Shown here: positions 8,636-58,367 of the stretch, in pieces | Numbering within the stretch: the first letter of the stretch is position 1 | Layout: every line of letters begins with the position of its first letter | Assembly (NCBI GenBank): GCA_950295325.1 | Contig: OX485806.1 | Span: 20,584,001 to 20,648,000 of the forward strand | Reading direction: 5' to 3' | DNA length: 64,000 bases | Origin: Polytrichum commune | Taxonomy: Eukaryota > Streptophyta > Polytrichopsida > Polytrichales > Polytrichaceae | Program-made: the position numbers and the translations under genes | The notes under the pieces: generated by a model | Told to the model about the DNA's origin: nothing | The model's database searches: none | What the model saw: the letters and a program-made list of their open reading frames with translations, nothing else

Positions 8636-8999
8636 TAAGGTCCATGTGTGGTATTTGGATGCTTTTCCCTAGTAAGACATGAACGACACAATTAAAGTGA
8701 GATGATTAGCAAATTCAAATCTTGCCAAAGCCATTTGCCTCATAAGTTTTTGGGCTCATATGAATATCTTATTCATTATCTAAGTGAAGATTTCTTGTGC
8801 TCATGACGTGGTCATATAGGTCTCTCCAATTGTGTTGGTTGTTGAGCCTAGAATGGTTAGCATAGTTTAAGAATGTAGTCCAATCTTATGTAAACATGTG
8901 TCTTTTTGGTGTCCGTTCTTAGATCCACACCTAACCACATACCACTCAAATAGAAGTGTCCAAATTATCGACGTGTTGGAATCAAGCACGTCTACCTTA
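8636..8999 (+). repeat. R1 dispersed repeat, plus-strand copy
   Basis: Full-length copy from TAAGG at 8636 to TCTACCTTA ending at 8999. It is the clearest right end of the family in the window. Confidence 0.8.
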
Positions 9000-9433: not shown

Positions 9434-9704
9434 AATGATGGTGCATGCTTGGAGCTGGTACTGTTTGAATTTGAATGAAAAGCAACCTGTTTCTTGAGAT
9501 TCAATGAGGGACAAACTCAATTATTAGCACCTCTTGGCATGCTAAAATGAGTTTGACCCTCCCTAAACTGATATAGAATCCTTTTTGTTCAAACCTCCAC
9601 ACTCTTTTCAAGCATGTACCAAAAACTCACTAAACACAAAAGGTCTCGTAATCAAAACAACAAACTCTTGACCAAAACTCATGTTGAGTTAGAGGATAAC
9701 TCTA
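9434..9704. repeat. Foldback element FB, decayed copy
   Basis: The right arm (about 9530-9704) matches the right arm of the palindrome at 14473-14812, including CACCTCTTGGCATGCTAAAA at the centre and GAGGATAACTCTA at the end. The left arm is shortened and diverged (GTGCATGCTTGGAGC near 9442). It is an old, asymmetrical relative of that element. Confidence 0.65.
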
Positions 9705-9715
9705 TGCGTAGTAAC

Positions 9716-10090
9716 TAAGGTAGAGTAGGCCTTGAACATGCATTTTCCTCTCCGCAGCCACTTCTTGTAAGATATGAAGCACGCAATTTGTGTGAGATGA
9801 TTAGCAAATCCAAATGTGCCCGTAGTCACTTTCTCACAATTTTGTTCAGAGCTTGTACGAATAATTTGTTCATTGTCAAAGTGAAGATTCTCCTAGCTAG
9901 TAGTCCCCCCTCCCCTGAATTTTATGTTGACTCTTACCTCTAGAATGGTTAACAAAATTCGAACCCATAGGCCAATATGTTTTCAACATGTCTATTTGAT
10001 GTCTGCATTCTTAGATTCACATGCAACCATACACCACTCAAATATAGGTGTCTGTTTGAATCGAAAACCGAATTAGGGATATCTACTTTA
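9716..10090 (+). repeat. R1 dispersed repeat, plus-strand copy
   Basis: Full-length copy from TAAGGTAGAGTAGG to TCTACTTTA, lying only about 12 bp after the foldback copy. The small open frames on both strands are in the repeat. Confidence 0.78.
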
Positions 10091-14160: not shown

Positions 14161-14326
14161 TTAGATTATGACGAATTGTCTTGCTGAACCTGGATGTTGG
14201 ATGGGCGTCTTGGTTTGGTGGCACATGGAATGTGATAGAGGAGACTTTTGGGTGAAAGGCTTGGCCATGTCCAAATTGGGATCATCAAGTTGCCAAGTAC
14301 AAGGTTGGGAGTTGGGTTGAGACCCC

Positions 14327-14413
14327 CACCCCCCCCCCCCCACACACACACACACACACACACACACAATATAATAAGGTGCCACCGGGGGGTGGGGTGG
14401 GGGGTGGGGTGGG
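14327..14413. repeat. C-run, (CA)n microsatellite and G-rich tract
   Basis: About 13 C bases are followed by about 14 CA units (to about 14368) and then a G-rich GGGGTGGGGTGG tract. The open frames across it are low-complexity artefacts. Confidence 0.9.
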
Positions 14414-14472
14414 GTGGGTAAGGGCTACCACTTGCCCAAACAAGGATTTCAGGATAGCCAGTCATGTGCCAA

Positions 14473-14812
14473 TAGAGTTATCCTTTAACTCAACCGGAGT
14501 TTTAGTAGGGAGTTGGTTGTTTCGCATGCATAACTTTCCATGTTCGGTAAGTTGTGGGTGCATGCTTGGAGTCAATGTGGAGGTTTGAACGAAGAACCTT
14601 CCATATTAGTTCATTGGGTATCAAACTCATTTTGGCGTCTCTTGGCATGCCAAAATGAGTTTGGTACCCAATGAACTAATATGGAAGGTTCTTCGTTCAA
14701 ACCTCCACATTGACTCCAAGCATGCACCCACAACTTACCGAACATGAAAAGTTATGCATGCGAAACAACCAACTCCCTACTAAAACTCCAGTTGAGTTAA
14801 AGGATAACTCTA
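14473..14812. repeat. Foldback element FB: 340-bp near-perfect palindrome
   Basis: Left arm 14473-14636 and right arm 14649-14812 are 164 bp each and complementary, with only three mismatches seen, around a 12-base spacer (14637-14648). It opens TAGAGTTATCC and closes GGATAACTCTA. The outer TA pairs could be a 2-bp target duplication of mariner/Stowaway type, leaving GAGTTATCC termini. Diverged relatives lie at 9434-9704 and 21378-21590. An RNA copy would form a ~164-bp hairpin, so it is a candidate source of small RNAs. It encodes no protein. Confidence 0.92.
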
Positions 14813-16636
14813 ATATATTGAAGTAAGTTCTCTTGAAAATGTAATGCAATGCCATCATCCAATATTTTGAATTGATTTCTTTTTGGTATTGGATGGTCTA
14901 GGATGATGGCATCATTCACCCACTTCCACCCAATTTGTTGATTGTTAATCAACAGTGTCTTCAACATTCAACATTGAACAGTATAATCACATACAAGCTT
15001 TGGGCATTATACATATTAATTCCTTGATAGGCAAATTGCGTACGAAGCCCATTTCTATCTTAGAATCAATATCCCACTTTGCGTTTGATTCTATTACCTC
15101 TTGTCAGACCTATCTAAGAGGTTGATGTACAACTTTTCAACAATAAATATGTGAATGATTACAAGGATGGAGTTAAGGTGTTATATGTGTCATCTTATGA
15201 CAACTATGAGCAAGGTATGGAGATTAATGTTTCAGACACATGGGAAAGCATTTTGTCGCACTAGCTCCCCTTAACTATCTTGGTTGTTTCTCAATTCTAG
15301 CAAGGGTCACAAGTGCTAATCCTTCGCATTCCATCCATGCAAATTGTTAGCTCCCCATATCGCGGACCTCTTAGCTTATAGGTGGGGGATCGACCCTCTT
15401 ACACTTGCATTCGGGACTCTCCCTTTATTCGGTAGCCAATGGGTAGATGTGGACTTCCATCCATGGAATTTCAATCTTTAGTTGATCATCGCATTGCTAG
15501 GCAATTATGCATCCACGTTGGGCCAATGCCCGTGGAGGCCGTGTCATTCGGCCTCGGGTGGGTTCGGCCGGCCACGCCGCCTCACCCATATAAACCTCTA
15601 GGACTTTGGGCAAGGCCCCTACCCCACCATCAAAAAACCTTTTGTTTCTCTCCTAAGAGTTCACTAGAACCCGGTCACTTTGACATAAGGCCATGACATA
15701 AAAAAAAATTGTTGAAGTTTTGAGCTCCGCAACATATTTTTTACATATGTGGGAGTTATGTCACTTTATTGTTATACAAAAGGTCCATGAAGGAATGTTT
15801 TATTTTTAATTAGTTTTATAGATCTACTACATACATATTATTATTTTAATGATATGTGTATATATAAAAATTAAATCAAATAACCCTTGAATTCTACTTA
15901 TAATCAAAAAATTACCGCCAAGGTCAAAGTCAAAGAGCTAAAACCACGACACAATTCTAACACCCATTTGCTAAAAAATAGGATTGGTTCAAGATGACAC
16001 CTTCTCCATATTGGCTACAACTTCAACGAGATGTGTGTTGGTCACTTAAAAGCGTCAGATTAGTGTCCATTTTTTTGTGGAAAATGACCATGTTTCCTTC
16101 TAGTAGTTGGGGCCGAGTAGACATTTTCCCTTAGCCGTTGGGGCAGGAAGACCCCAACAACTTCAAACCACCATAACTTCTTTGCATGATCTTTGATGCA
16201 TCAAGCAACCACTCCATAGTAATTTGCGCTTCATGTAGATGTCGATGGACTCCTCACTTGCCCCATTCGGACAAATATTGAAGAAGCTATGGTTGTTTTA
16301 ATCACGGGCGCCACTTTCAGGTCACTGTTGTCCTAGGGCGTTGTCCCTAGACAGTGCCCCACTCAAGAAATCGACGTTGTCCCTAAACAACGTTGATTTT
16401 GCACCAGTCACATTGCAAGAAACCAAGAATTTGGGCTCTCGACCCTTCACAATAAAGGCCAAAGTCTAAAGGCCATCGCTCTCCAAAATGCCTACATGGT
16501 AGTATTTTTTTACCAAGGCAACAGACTCTCGAAGGAAATTTGGGTTAGACATGAATGGAAACCCAAACTATGGTCGAGAGGCCGTCGGTTTTTTCATTAA
16601 AATTTTAAAAACTAACAAGATCTTGGCTGCTAGATT
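14813..16636. other. Intergenic, no gene recognised
   Basis: A weak inverted pair (CATCATCCAATA ... TATTGGATG) lies at about 14850-14905. The frame at 15439-15696 has no family motif. Nothing else found. Confidence 0.45.
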
Positions 16637-21377: not shown

Positions 21378-21592
21378 AAAATTATCCTTTAATTCAACTG
21401 GAGTTTTGGTTGGGAGTTGGTTGTTTTGCATATAAAACTTCCATGTTCGGTAAGTTTTCGGTGCATGCTTGGAGTTGGTGTGGAGGACTGCACAAGGAAC
21501 ATTCTATATCGGTTCATTTAGAACCAAACTCTTTTTAGCACCTCTTGGCATGCAAAAACAAATTTTGACCCTCAATGAACTGATAAATTAAA
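21378..21592. repeat. Foldback element FB, half copy
   Basis: The left arm (about 21378-21545) matches that of the 14473-14812 palindrome, and the centre CACCTCTTGGCATGC is kept. Only the first ~40 bp of the right arm remain, so the copy is truncated and cannot fold fully. Confidence 0.75.
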
Positions 21593-38819: not shown

Positions 38820-40658
38820 TCATTCATTAATCCAGCGCAGTGAATGCCCATGGTTTGCATTTGTGTGCATCACGTGTTTCCTCCGGGTCGAGACAAGTTC
38901 AAATTGGAGAGGTTGTTCATCATCAAAATTCCTTTCTTTGTTCAGAAACTGGGCAAGGGTTAGGTGCAGCTCGAGTTCATTCTGTACCTGGGCCGAGACA
39001 ACACACACGACGCGGTGTGCAGCTTTTGTGATGCTACATTGGCTGACATCCAGTCGCAAACTCTCCAGGCATTGGAAAATAAGGCTCTGAAAGTGCCGTT
39101 GAGGACGGCAAACCAACTCAATTAACACCTGGTGCGGCAGGTCCACATGGATATCTATCTTCTCCAGACAGCTTCTCAGAAGGGCATAAGTTTCATTCAG
39201 ATCTTCCTTCGTAGCTCCAACCTTAATTTGTGTTTTACAGTCTTCGTCACGGCGGCTTAGTTTCTGAGCAGCAGCTGCTCCAGCTTCTGCTGCCACAGTT
39301 GTAATTCTCCCACGCTGCGTGGGGGTTTGCTGGATAGTGCGTGGCGATAAAGCTGCCGTAGCACTTTGTTTCATCTCCAGCTTCCGCTGTTGGAGGACTT
39401 TAATACGATGATGCAGATTCTTCACATACTCGATGGAGTCGTCAACTATGGTGGACCTGTCCCGCTGGATTGTCAAACAAACAGAAGTAAACACGGTTAG
39501 TTGCTGTGACTTGAGATGATTTTCCAGACACACACACCTCGTACTCGCACAACCAAGAACAGTGACTTAACCCCCCAAACCACTACTAAAACATCGTGCA
39601 TCATCACAACGGTTTCTCTTTCTCACCTGTGTGACAACGATCTCACTCAAATCCCACAAAGGCAAACATCATCACAAGCTGGAAATTCGTATCAATCAAC
39701 CAACTTACAGGAAACACATTAAGAAGTATATTACGAAATAAGGACAAGCAGCTTGGTTGATTACTTTTGCGCCATCAGGTAGCAAGGACTCCAGGACCAA
39801 GAACTTGCTAGTCATGTCGTCTCGCCGCTGCCGCTCCCTCATGATATGATCGGCTTGATCCGTCGCCCGCTTCGGCCACCGCCCTGCAGCAGCTTCCTGA
39901 CCAGCCCTCTTATCAATTTTCCTTCTCGGTGCAAGATTACTCGGAGGATCGAGACTTCCATTATCCCCACGTTTCCCTCCTCGAGGCGATGAACTCGAGA
40001 GCTGCTGCTGCTGATGATTACCTTCCAGCCAGCATTCTCGAGGAGGGACCTGTCTCCGCACAGGCACCGACGAATTAACCCCTCCAGCAGCAGCCATCTG
40101 CGAGCCGGGGCTTGTAGTAAAACCCAGTCCCCCTGCAAGCCCCGAACCATACGAAACCGCCGCAGGGCTTGTAGTCCTACCATGACCGAAGTTCATTGCT
40201 TTTTGATGATGATCATCTGCTTGGTGAATCGATATCGGATCATCATCGTCATACAACAAGCTCTGAGCAAGCTCCATAGGTGATGCGTAGCCGCCTAACC
40301 CTCCATACGAGCTCCCCAAACATACTACAGCCTCCCCGGGTGTTCCGACTCCACCACCACCGTGCACAACATGAACACCTGCTCCTGCTGATGTTATTGT
40401 TGTCGTCGTCGTCGTCGTCGTCGTGGTTCCAATTTGCGGATGATGATGATGTTGGGGAGGAGCTGAGCCTTGTTGTAGGTACACCTGGCTCTCTAAAAAT
40501 TCATTAAACTCCTGCTGCAGGTGCGCATTGCCTTCTGACTCCATCGATGGGAAGCAACTGGTGGTGTCACCGCGCACCATGAAGTCGTCCTCCCCGAAGC
40601 CAATATTAAACCCTCGCCTGTTCGGCCCCATGGTGTAGGACGCCCCCAAGCTTACCAT
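38820..40658 (-). CDS. bHLH transcription factor with C-terminal ACT-like region (two exons)
   Basis: Exon 1 is 40658-39765 (298 codons) and exon 2 is 39464-38820 (214 codons plus TGA), joined in phase 0 across a 300-bp GT-AG intron (39764-39465). The join falls in the loop of the bHLH domain, between LLPDGAK and RDRSTIVDDS. The basic region HIMRERQRR (residues 271-279) has the His-Glu-Arg pattern that contacts E-box/G-box DNA. Helix 2 (about 299-325) continues into a leucine-containing coiled coil. Residues 403-458 resemble the ACT-like fold seen at the C-terminus of many plant bHLH proteins, used for dimerisation. The N-terminal 200 residues are low-complexity, rich in His, Thr, Gly and Ser. 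It should act in the nucleus as a dimer. The subfamily is uncertain; helix sequences recall the group containing Arabidopsis bHLH010/089/091. An alternative start is the next ATG at 40631. Confidence 0.9.
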
Positions 40659-40663
40659 CACCA

Positions 40664-40688
40664 CTCTCTCTCTCTCTCTCCCTCCTCC
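40664..40688 (-). promoter_or_regulatory. GA-repeat 5' leader of the bHLH gene
   Basis: A run of about 10 GA units (CT on the plus strand) ends six bases before the chosen ATG, so it lies in the 5' untranslated leader. GA/CT leaders are common in plant genes and can bind BBR/BPC-type factors. That role is inferred. Confidence 0.5.
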
Positions 40689-41340
40689 ACAGCTCCGCTA
40701 CAACTATACCAACAAAACTTGATTCCACACAGCCCCCGGTACTCAACCTCCTCACACATCAAACTTGCATCAAACATCCCAACCTTCCACAACCTCCCAG
40801 AACCTCCCAGAACCACACAAGCATCAGCCAACTACTCCGATCACCGTCCGCAAAAATTCCTCCAGCTTCGTACTTAGCTGCCGCTTTTCTTACACTCCCA
40901 AGTCTTGTCACAGCTTGCTTCCCGTTTTGATCCAATTCCTGGGCACGAAACGAGACGACCCCTTATGCTGATGATGATGAGCTACCGAACACCCAACCAA
41001 GGTTTGCGAGAATGGGGTTGCTGCATCTTCTTTGTGAAGATGATGATGATGAGTTGCGGTGTTTGGAGATGGAAAAAAGGATGATGTGATGATACTCCTC
41101 CCGCTGCCGCTGCTGGGTGTGTAAGTGTCTGGCCACGAGCGGACGACGTAGTTGCAGCTGATGAAGGCGAGCGATCCAGGGTTTGGACGGCCATCCCTCG
41201 CACCTCGCCAAGTGCTCGCCTGTCATTCGCCGATGTCAACCCCCTCCTCCTCGCCCTTCTTATTAATTACTTACCCCAGCCCAGGGCTCCCATACCATAC
41301 AGTATAGTACCATACCCCCTGCTGCTCACTCTTTACCTTA
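40689..41340 (-). promoter_or_regulatory. Probable promoter/leader of the bHLH gene
   Basis: The segment upstream of the start codon is GC-richer than its surroundings and free of dispersed repeats. It contains three AACCTCCCAGAACC-like direct repeats near 40790-40815. No convincing TATA box or transcription start could be fixed. An 85-codon minus-strand frame (40982-41239) has no motif. Confidence 0.35.
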
Positions 41341-45374: not shown

Positions 45375-45582
45375 TGGGTGCCTACACTAAATACTATACT
45401 TAGTGTCCCTTACTATTTGGATATACAGAAGTGCTATATCTTTTCACCATTGATGTAATTTATTACCAAGGAAAGTTGTTAGTGCTCTTTAATGTCCAAA
45501 CAACCAATTTAACATTTTTTCATAAAATATGAGATATATAAGAAATAGATATAGCATTGCGTAATTCTAAATAGTCATTGAC
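45375..45582 (+). repeat. R4-type repeat, third fragment (empty T2 site)
   Basis: CACTAAATACTATACTTAGTG continues into CCTTACTATTTGGATATAC. The same text surrounds the T2 element at 19502-20012, so the single TTA at 45400-45402 is the unoccupied form of that target. Confidence 0.7.
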
Positions 45583-45937
45583 GCCCAAGGCTGAATCGCA
45601 TTTGTGTTCGACTGGGTCCCGTCCATCCCACGCCTCCTTCACTGCTAAGTTGTCCTGCCCACACCTGCATGGGAACTCTTCCCCGTTGGGAATCAATGTG
45701 ACAGTATTTGGTCACTTAAGTCATTAAGCTCCTTTGGCATGTGATTAACTTCATCAATTAACTTGGGAATAATGAAAGTGATGTCAATATGAATATTTGT
45801 AATGTTAACTGGGTATTGTCACATTGGTTCCCAACGGGAAAGAGTTCCCATACAGGTGCGGGTAGGAAGACTGGGCAGTGAAGGAGGCGTGGGAGGGGCG
45901 GGGTCCAGTTCAACACATATGTGATTTAGCCCGGGGC
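45583..45937. mobile_element. M-family MULE-like miniature element (355 bp)
   Basis: Flanked by GTCATTGAC (45574-45582) and GTCAGTGAC (45938-45946), a 9-bp duplication with one change, as in Mutator-like elements. Ends are GCCCAAGGCTGAATCGCAT and ATGTGATTTAGCCCGGGGC. A second inner inverted pair contains TCCCCGTTGGGAATCAATGT. A relative lies at 57962-58367. Non-coding. Confidence 0.72.
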
Positions 45938-46193
45938 GTCAGTGACACTAAATATCATTTTTGTGTAGTTCCTTGTTGAGAGGACCAAAGATAGCAAAAG
46001 CGAAGACATGAGAAGAAATTGTCCGTAGATGCTTTTGTGAGAGGCGACATGTGGGGAATGAGCCCACAAAGTAAGCCATGTCAACAGTGCAAGAAAAATT
46101 GAGACACATCTGCTTTGTAAGACTTGACGTGTGGGTATGAGATAATAATAATAATAAAAAACAGCATGTGAGCCCAGCCTTTTGGACACCCAT

Positions 46194-48004: not shown

Positions 48005-48007
48005 TGA

Positions 48008-48452
48008 GGGGCGGTTTACACTATGGACCATGAAGTCGTCCCACGTAAGAGGCCTATTTTGCGTGGGACGACTTCATGGGACGACTTCCATGGTCCGAGT
48101 TACTAAAATATTAGTTTTCATGGTTCATGGGCCCTTCACTAGGTGTAAACCGAATGTGGACCATGAAGAATGACCATGCACCAAAAAGGCTTAAAACGGC
48201 ATTTTTCTGACATGGGCCCTTGCTCTTTTTCCCGGACCACCTCTTTTGCTTGTCCCAACGGAAAACCCGTTGGACCATGGCAGTGGATAGAGTAGGCTTA
48301 AAAAATAATATTTTGTGGACCTCAACCTCCGTGGTCACTCTGCCATTTTTTCCTTGGTGTAAACCCAAGTCGTCCCGGGACGACTTCAACGTCCAATCAC
48401 ATCGCTTAGACGGCCGTGGGACGACTTCATGGTCCATAGTGTAAACCGCCCC
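48008..48452 (+). mobile_element. T4 miniature element, intact copy (445 bp)
   Basis: The terminal inverted repeats are perfect over 38 bp, starting GGGGCGGTTTACACTATGG. TGA at 48005-48007 and 48453-48455 may be a 3-bp duplication. GAACTCATTGT also occurs on both sides (47981 and 48454), which leaves the true duplication open. Internal GGGACGACTTCATGG blocks add further inverted pairs. It has no transposase. Length and ends suggest PIF/Harbinger, less surely than for T1 to T3. Confidence 0.85.
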
Positions 48453-48740
48453 TGAACTCATTGTATCATATTGACCGTTGCTCCCAAACTCAGGGTTTGT
48501 TTACACCACAAACCATGAAGTTGTCCCATGGCCTTATAAGAGCGTTGATTGGTTGTCGAACTCATCCCAGGACCACTTTGGTTTACACCAAGGGGAAAAT
48601 GTCAGAGTGACCATGAAGGTCGAGGTTCTCAAAAGACATATTTTAAAGCCTACATAATTCACTGACATGGTTCAACGGGTTTTGCGGTGAGAGAGGCAAA
48701 AGAGGTGATATGGTAGAAAAAAAACAAGGGCCCATGGCAG

Positions 48741-49626
48741 AGTAATGATGTTATAATAAAAATTTAATGAATTTATCTGAGGAAGTTTAGATACAACTCT
48801 ACCCGCTAGGTAAGGCTCACAAGGCACATTTCTTCAGCATTTGTGTGTTGTAATGGATCTTGAGAAGCAAGTTTGCCCTTTGTGCGCGTTGACCATATCA
48901 TAGGCCATGAGACACACCACTTCTTCCATGCCCTCCCCCTTGAACCAACTCCCACCTTTTTCACCAAACAATGTGGGACAACGTACTTGCAAATCTATAG
49001 ATCTAACATAATGAGTTTAGTTACAATAGCAATATACCAGAACCGTCATGATGTCAAATTATTCACATCTCTATTGAAATTACGGAATATCAAAAATCAC
49101 ACCAAACCCAACACATCTAGAACTCCATAATTCAAGTACACATGATTGTAGTACAATGCATGGAAATTTTAATTCACCATATTCCTAAGCAGGGAGAACC
49201 GCCTGCTGCTTACAAATGAACTGGTTGAGATTGAGATATCAGGTTCGTAAGTGATCTATTTACATGAATCTTTTCAAATACACCTCAAATTGATAAAGAA
49301 AAACCAAAAAATGTCCACATGTAACTAGTTGCACTTGGAAACACTAGGATCTTGACAAATCATGGCCAAAAATATTTCCAGACACTTATCATAACATACT
49401 CAACCAGGTGACAAAAAGTGGGTTGCAAATAATGTTCAATGTACAACACAAGGTACATGTCACATGTAAATTATAATGGACATTTACAAATTAAATTGCT
49501 CATTTTGTTTGTAAAAATTATTGTGAGAAGATCTGCAAGCCACACCTTTGACACATCTAACACGAAGTGAAGACAAGTGAAGCCAAGAAAAGACAAGAGA
49601 ATGGTCAAACTTGACTTCTGTTTTTC
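48741..49626. other. Segment inserted into T4, of unknown nature
   Basis: 886 bp that interrupt the T4 copy. It holds an F-family relative (49195-49395, minus). No clear terminal repeat or duplication was found at its edges. The frame at 48873-49130 has no motif. Confidence 0.5.
49195..49395 (-). mobile_element. F-family hAT-like element, decayed copy
   Basis: Reverse-complement landmarks GATGTCAACATGTAACCGG-like (here AATGTCCACATGTAACTAG) and GGCCAAAAATATTTCCAGAC occur in family order. No duplication seen. Confidence 0.6.
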
Positions 49627-49820
49627 AAAAATGCCCTTTTTGGGCATATATTAAAAAATTCAGCACATTCACTTTTTGGTGCATGGTCATTCATCTTGGT
49701 CCACATTTAGTTTACACTTGTGACCTAGTGAGGGGCCCAAAGACTTTGTAAATTGATCTTTTAAATATCGGACCATGGGAAAAGGCCATCTTGCATGGTC
49801 CGACTTCATGGTCCATGGTG

Positions 49821-49830
49821 TAAACCGACC
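49821..49830. repeat. Target-site duplication of SINE copy 2 (left)
   Basis: TAAACCGACC repeats exactly at 50197-50206. Confidence 0.88.
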
Positions 49831-53827: not shown

Positions 53828-54180
53828 CAGTGCCCGGGAAGTTTTTGGGCATAGTCGGTCAACATCCTAGTGATTCTAAATAAATTTCCAGCCAGTTACA
53901 TCACTACAACAAAACGCATGTTTTATGACTACAATTTCTGATTGCACTCAGTCATATTTTGGGATTTATGGCTGAGTGCAATCATAAATTATAGTCATAA
54001 AACATGCGTTTTGTTGTAGTGCATGTTGACATCTTTTCGTCTTTGCTTTATTCATTTGAGGTATATTCCATAGATTCTTCTAAAATTATCGGTAATTCTT
54101 CTGAAATTTCCAACTTCAACCGGTTATTTCTCAAACTCAACCGATTCATTTGTAACTAACCGCCGGTTCTTCCTGGACAT
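53828..54180 (+). mobile_element. F-family hAT-like element interrupted by a CACTA-like element
   Basis: Opens CAGTGCCCGGGAAG and closes CTTCCTGGACATAG-like. The paired AACCGGTT and AACCGATT boxes are kept. It carries the 120-bp insertion at 53902-54021; without it and one CAT it is about 230 bp, near the 225 bp of the copy at 42255-42479. No clean 8-bp duplication remains. Confidence 0.75.
53902..54021. mobile_element. CACTA-like miniature foldback element (120 bp)
   Basis: Opens CACTACAACAAAACGCATG and closes with its inverse; the arms run about 50 bp around a short centre and are nearly perfect. CAT at 53899-53901 and 54022-54024 is a 3-bp duplication. CACTA start and 3-bp duplication fit the CACTA/En-Spm superfamily. 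The empty site, GGTTACATGTTGACATC, is seen in sister F copies at 8055 and 23884. Confidence 0.9.
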
Positions 54181-57961: not shown

Positions 57962-58367
57962 GGCCCCGGGCTAGATCACATCTTCATTCGGTTGGGCCCT
58001 GCCCTTCCCATGCCTCCTTCATTGTCCGGTTTTCCTGCCCGCACCTGTTGGGGAATTTTTCCTCGTTGGGAATCAATCTGACAATACCTGGTTAAAGTTA
58101 CAAATATTCAAGTTGACATCACTTTCATTATTCCCAAGTTAATTGATGGAGTTCCTTCACATGCTAAAGGAGCTCAAGGGCTTAAGTGACTGGGCGCTTA
58201 GTGCCCTAAGTGATCGGACGCTTAATGTCTTAAGTGACCAAGTATTGTCACATTGGTTCCCAACGGGGAAGAGTTCCCACGCAGGTGAGGGTAGGAAGAC
58301 CAAGTAGTGAAGGTGACGTGGGAGGGGCGGGGCCCAACCGAATGAAGATGTGAACTAGCCCGGGGCC
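57962..58367. mobile_element. M-family miniature element, copy 2 (about 406 bp)
   Basis: GGCCCCGGGCTAG at the left and CTAGCCCGGGGCC at the right are perfect inverses. The repeats continue through TCACATCTTCATTCGGTTGG. The inner half-palindrome CGTTGGGAATCAAT is shared with 45583-45937. A local GCGCTTAGTGCCCTAAGTGA-type repeat sits near the centre. No 9-bp duplication is visible here. Confidence 0.8.

Follow-up and report, generated by a model that had tools for sequence, protein, structure and literature searches.

A 340-bp palindrome lies at positions 14473-14812 of the window, the whole 64,000-nt stretch of Polytrichum commune DNA analysed here. Its left arm (14473-14636, plus strand) and right arm (14649-14812, minus strand) were delimited by an inverted-repeat listing and BLAST. 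Each arm is 164 nt long, the outermost TA possibly belonging to the target site, and 161/164 positions are complementary (98%). The arms enclose a 12-nt spacer, GTCTCTTGGCAT, at 14637-14648, which was assigned to neither strand. The arm mismatches are at 14495, 14538 and 14621, every one of them C/T. The palindrome of 340 bp with 164-bp arms, three mismatches and a 12-base spacer that the original prediction described was reproduced exactly, in both coordinates and counts. A listing of inverted pairs 30 nt or longer, spaced up to 3 kb apart, returned 25 pairs in the window. Among the 10 listed pairs with arms longer than 60 nt, this palindrome was 98% complementary compared to 72-87% for the remaining nine. 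Folding was compared with dinucleotide shuffles, and none of 100 was as stable either as single-stranded DNA (z = -39) or as RNA (z = -43), which rules out a chance origin. Symmetry does not extend past the outer TA: CCAA follows on the left and, on the opposite strand, ATAT on the right. About 50 bp ahead of the palindrome, at 14328-14420, there is a C-run followed by an AC repeat and a G-rich tract.

The only gene recognised in the frames searched encodes a bHLH transcription factor at 38823-40697 (~38.8-40.7 kb) on the minus strand, ~24 kb from the palindrome. A Pfam search of 30 open frames in the window gave matches for two, both of this gene. The HLH domain reached 21.7 bits (cut-off 20.7), and the same gene also shows a plant ACT-like match, weak and under its cut-off (17.6 versus 27.6). 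Both this gene and the repeats suggest a plant as the source of the window. The 9-22 kb region is touched by 46 open frames of 60 aa or longer; a Pfam search covering 23 of them revealed no transposase or other family, a search that would miss introns and short exons. The two such frames overlapping the palindrome, 14256-14585 and 14700-14897, had no Pfam match, and 340 bp is too short to encode a transposase. No Rfam family reached gathering score in the window, and ARAGORN under bacterial settings detected 0 tRNAs there.

Two older relatives of the palindrome, both on the plus strand, were present in the window. The damaged copy at 9438-9704 (the 9.4-kb copy) has a full right arm (9541-9704) with 73% identity to either palindrome arm and a left-arm remnant of ~85 nt (~9438-9522). 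The truncated copy at 21378-21590 (the 21.4-kb copy) has a full left arm (21378-21539) with 82% identity to the palindrome's arms and a right-arm remnant of ~33 nt (~21556-21588). The two relatives in the original prediction are thus real, with arms and centre in common with the palindrome, but they are incomplete, and the alignable sequence of the first starts at 9438 rather than 9434. Where the palindrome has GTCTCTTGGCAT, both older copies have ACCTCTTGGCAT in the same orientation, and no inversion of the spacer was seen among the three copies. Since this asymmetric centre is common to copies that are 18-27% apart, the palindromic layout predates the present copy. A profile was made from the six arm pieces of the three copies, so that its recovery of those six is by construction; neither BLAST nor this profile found an additional arm piece in the window with an E-value below 0.7.

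Apart from one 13-bp match (E ~0.5), the three copies have no similarity in their 1-kb flanks. Because the flanks are unrelated, the copies did not arise together by local duplication of some larger segment, and comparison of these sequences suggests instead that one family inserted at dispersed sites. The mobile foldback family that had been proposed is borne out as a family by its shared arms and centre, but its mobility is an extrapolation from three copies with unrelated flanks. All three lie inside 12 kb of one window, and this proximity may only reflect an abundant family. A direct repeat of ~300 bp with 68% identity (8669-8960 and 9764-10052) brackets the older copy at 9438-9704.

To trace the history of the arms, distances were taken from an arms-only alignment of the palindrome and the two old copies. 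The palindrome arms differ from each other at 3/164 positions (0.0185), from the 21.4-kb copy at 30/162 (left arm) and 29/162 (right arm), and from the 9.4-kb copy at 44/164 for each arm. A three-point Jukes-Cantor calculation gave a branch of ~0.10 per site for the palindrome itself. Over that branch, independent change of two arms from a symmetric ancestor would be expected to leave ~29 differences (hand calculation), compared to the 3 seen. In 12 of 162 columns both palindrome arms carry the same base and differ from the base agreed by the two full old arms; three differences are arm-specific. Only the two full old arms entered this count; the remnants, with 80 and 38 aligned columns, were displayed as extra rows. 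At the 7 joint-change columns that the remnants reach, they agreed fully with the old arms at five (103, 129, 133, 138 and 152), the 9.4-kb remnant matched the palindrome at column 122, contrary to joint change, and the remnants were split at column 171. In 8 of the 12 columns the old arms have A/T and the palindrome G/C. Six of these eight are transitions, which parallel decay of the C-to-T type in both old copies could explain instead. This leaves about six robust joint changes out of 12, at columns 32, 59, 82, 103, 129 and 138. This alignment indicates that change was copied between the arms, either in the lineage of the source element or at the present site.

Arms paired within one old element were no closer to each other than arms taken from different elements (26/80 different in the 9.4-kb copy and 14/38 in the 21.4-kb copy). 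Joint arm change is therefore evident for the palindrome lineage alone, and the arm divergence of the old copies is as expected of neutral decay following insertion. The original prediction held that the palindrome either is recent or owes its arm identity to gene conversion. For the joint change, recent insertion from a symmetric source would suffice, although conversion in place would look the same. The simplest reading of the near-identity is thus a symmetric source element that inserted recently, with conversion at the site possible and not needed. At substitution rates between 1.3e-8 and 7e-9 per site per year, which may not be the host's, the arm-to-arm distance of 0.0185 would correspond to an insertion ~0.7-1.3 million years ago.

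Similarity among the copies stops just outside [TA]GAGTTATCC at three intact termini, namely both palindrome ends and the right end of the 9.4-kb copy. Sequence comparison thereby places the element ends, to within 2 bp, at [TA]GAGTTATCC. Depending on the boundary chosen, the flank repeats are TA/TA or AAT/AAT, the TA flanks themselves being part of the palindrome. The TA flanks noted in the original prediction fit a TA duplication, but they belong to the palindrome and so prove nothing. Comparison of the flanks revealed no convincing target-site duplication at the palindrome, and we therefore assign the element to no superfamily. A Tc1/Mariner-like MITE that inserts at TA is a serious candidate, if somewhat short of an even chance, as TA is found on either side if the repeat starts at GAG and is retained where the right end of the 9.4-kb copy survives. 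Against this, TA is self-complementary and would also pass as part of the repeat, and a 2-bp match is weak. Furthermore, Stowaway ends are CTCCCTCC, and the ends found here, GAGTTATCC, are unlike them. We consider it unlikely that the palindrome is instead a Mutator-class foldback element whose 9-bp duplication (ATGTGCCAA / ATATATTGA) has since changed solely by transitions and whose arms were kept alike by conversion in place. In its favour, the flanks are identical (4) or differ by a transition (5) at 9/9 positions, a survey in PMC12550479 gives 41.5% as the Mutator share of MITEs in 207 plant genomes, and a passage in PMC4079207 states that foldback elements are mostly assigned to Mutator. 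However, among random flank pairs given the same boundary shifts, such a match of 8 or 9 bp arose in 4.8% of trials and one of 7-11 bp in 9.3%, so that the 9-bp match is not significant. Change at 5/9 positions would also need a very old insertion compared to the palindrome branch of ~0.10 per site; even at 0.2 per site, the chance of at least five of nine being changed is ~2% (by hand). A fuller version of this history, in which the insertion is old, the 9-bp duplication decayed by transitions and continual correction of the arms in place made a lasting near-perfect hairpin and small-RNA source while its relatives decayed, we regard as highly improbable.

Two further explanations do without a transposon. 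A young inverted duplication serving as a proto-microRNA or siRNA gene would account for a hairpin that is long and near-perfect, and inverted duplication is described in PMC3237417 as a route by which plant miRNA genes originate. However, both arms and the centre are common to two diverged copies, so the inverted repeat is older than the palindrome copy. In addition, the arms have no similarity to coding families in the frames of at least 60 aa tested that overlap or lie near them. These observations make such an origin quite improbable. High arm identity, and nothing beyond it, could also suggest an assembly or read-folding artefact. The arms differ at 3 sites, however, the spacer is short and defined, and the flanks do not continue the symmetry. 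Since the arms and the same asymmetric centre recur in two diverged copies in the window, an artefact appears very unlikely as the source of the palindrome, to the point of being almost negligible.

Collectively, these results make it highly probable that, of the copies visible, the palindrome is the youngest representative of a foldback-type MITE: a DNA transposon of ~340 bp, non-coding and non-autonomous, consisting almost entirely of terminal inverted repeat with an asymmetric centre of 12 nt. Inverted repeat accounts for 328/340 bases, so that long inverted repeats form the bulk of the element, as in foldback elements, and an element of 340 bp bounded by 164-nt arms is short with terminal inverted repeats, as in MITEs. 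Counting against this reading are that only three copies were found, that they occupy one 12-kb stretch, that all have the same orientation relative to the centre and that the flanks gave no convincing target-site duplication. The review PMC12595863 describes MITEs as short elements with terminal inverted repeats and AT-rich duplications of 2-9 bp, from which 24-nt siRNAs are possible when transcribed. The palindrome resembles plant MITEs (Tourist, Stowaway, Mutator-, hAT- and CACTA-type) in being short, hairpin-forming and, where tested, non-coding, with terminal inverted repeats and apparently dispersed copies. Unlike plant MITEs generally, it is nearly all inverted repeat, and its ends fit no type named in the literature compared. 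The foldback element Tetris of Drosophila virilis likewise has very long inverted repeats, a small centre and no transposase gene found. According to the description in PMC4079207, Tetris differs from the palindrome in carrying ~220-bp internal tandem repeats in its inverted repeats and making 8-10-bp duplications. No tandem repeat scoring at least 60 was found within 14473-14812, and we therefore term the element foldback-type rather than a member of Foldback/Tetris.

For this foldback-type MITE, we infer cut-and-paste movement in which a transposase from an autonomous relative elsewhere would bind the ends [TA]GAGTTATCCTYTAACTCAAC. The source element would stay near-symmetric, changes in one arm being transferred to its partner; template switching or conversion, acting on an extruded hairpin form of the palindrome or during repair, could do this. 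Every inserted copy would afterwards decay independently. That both palindrome arms bear the same changes resembles arm homogenisation by template switching; the examples in PMC8604942 concern short repeats in yeast coding DNA, and homogenisation in the palindrome is presumed by analogy. The joint arm change, itself read directly from the alignment, provides a small, testable case of how symmetry is kept up in palindromic elements and would not surprise specialists. As an element the palindrome is ordinary, new only as a member of a family matched to no named family so far compared. If mobile, it would serve as a young and clear reference on which to name a MITE family. Strings of the arm sequence gave no match in the papers searched, and the family may still stand in repeat databases. 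An exact-pattern scan with a degenerate arm stretch returned 0 hits in viral and prokaryotic contig collections, which says little on plants.

The original prediction that a transcript would form a long double-stranded hairpin agrees with RNA folding, which predicts a hairpin of ~164 bp for a read-through transcript. Read-through from a neighbouring transcript could yield an extended hairpin RNA that Dicer-like enzymes might plausibly process, mainly into 24-nt siRNAs. In its length and extensive self-complementarity, this hairpin resembles MITE-derived miRNA and siRNA loci such as the rice TE-MIRs and the Arabidopsis inverted repeats near genes. Unlike the latter, no gene was recognised around the palindrome in the stretch searched. 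In an Arabidopsis accession, ~486 of 634 inverted repeats near genes give 24-nt siRNAs, as summarised in the review PMC12595863, and PMC3086885 reports for rice that 80% of 92 TE-related miRNA loci are MITEs. By analogy with these published data, small-RNA output from the palindrome is plausible, and its hairpin is a sensible spot to look for siRNAs.

Other inverted repeats were observed elsewhere in the window. Nested inverted repeats at 48007-49830 include 230-nt arms at 77% and a perfect 39-nt pair. The inverted repeats at 45574-45946 and 57962-58367, with arms at 83% and 82%, share the ends GCCCCGGGCTA.ATCACAT and are probably one additional MITE family; the former has CTAAATA at either side, one base out of register. 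At 53902-54021 there is a 120-bp hairpin with 55-nt arms (95%), the ends CACTACAACAAAA and a 3-bp flank repeat, CAT/CAT, which we take to resemble a CACTA-type MITE.
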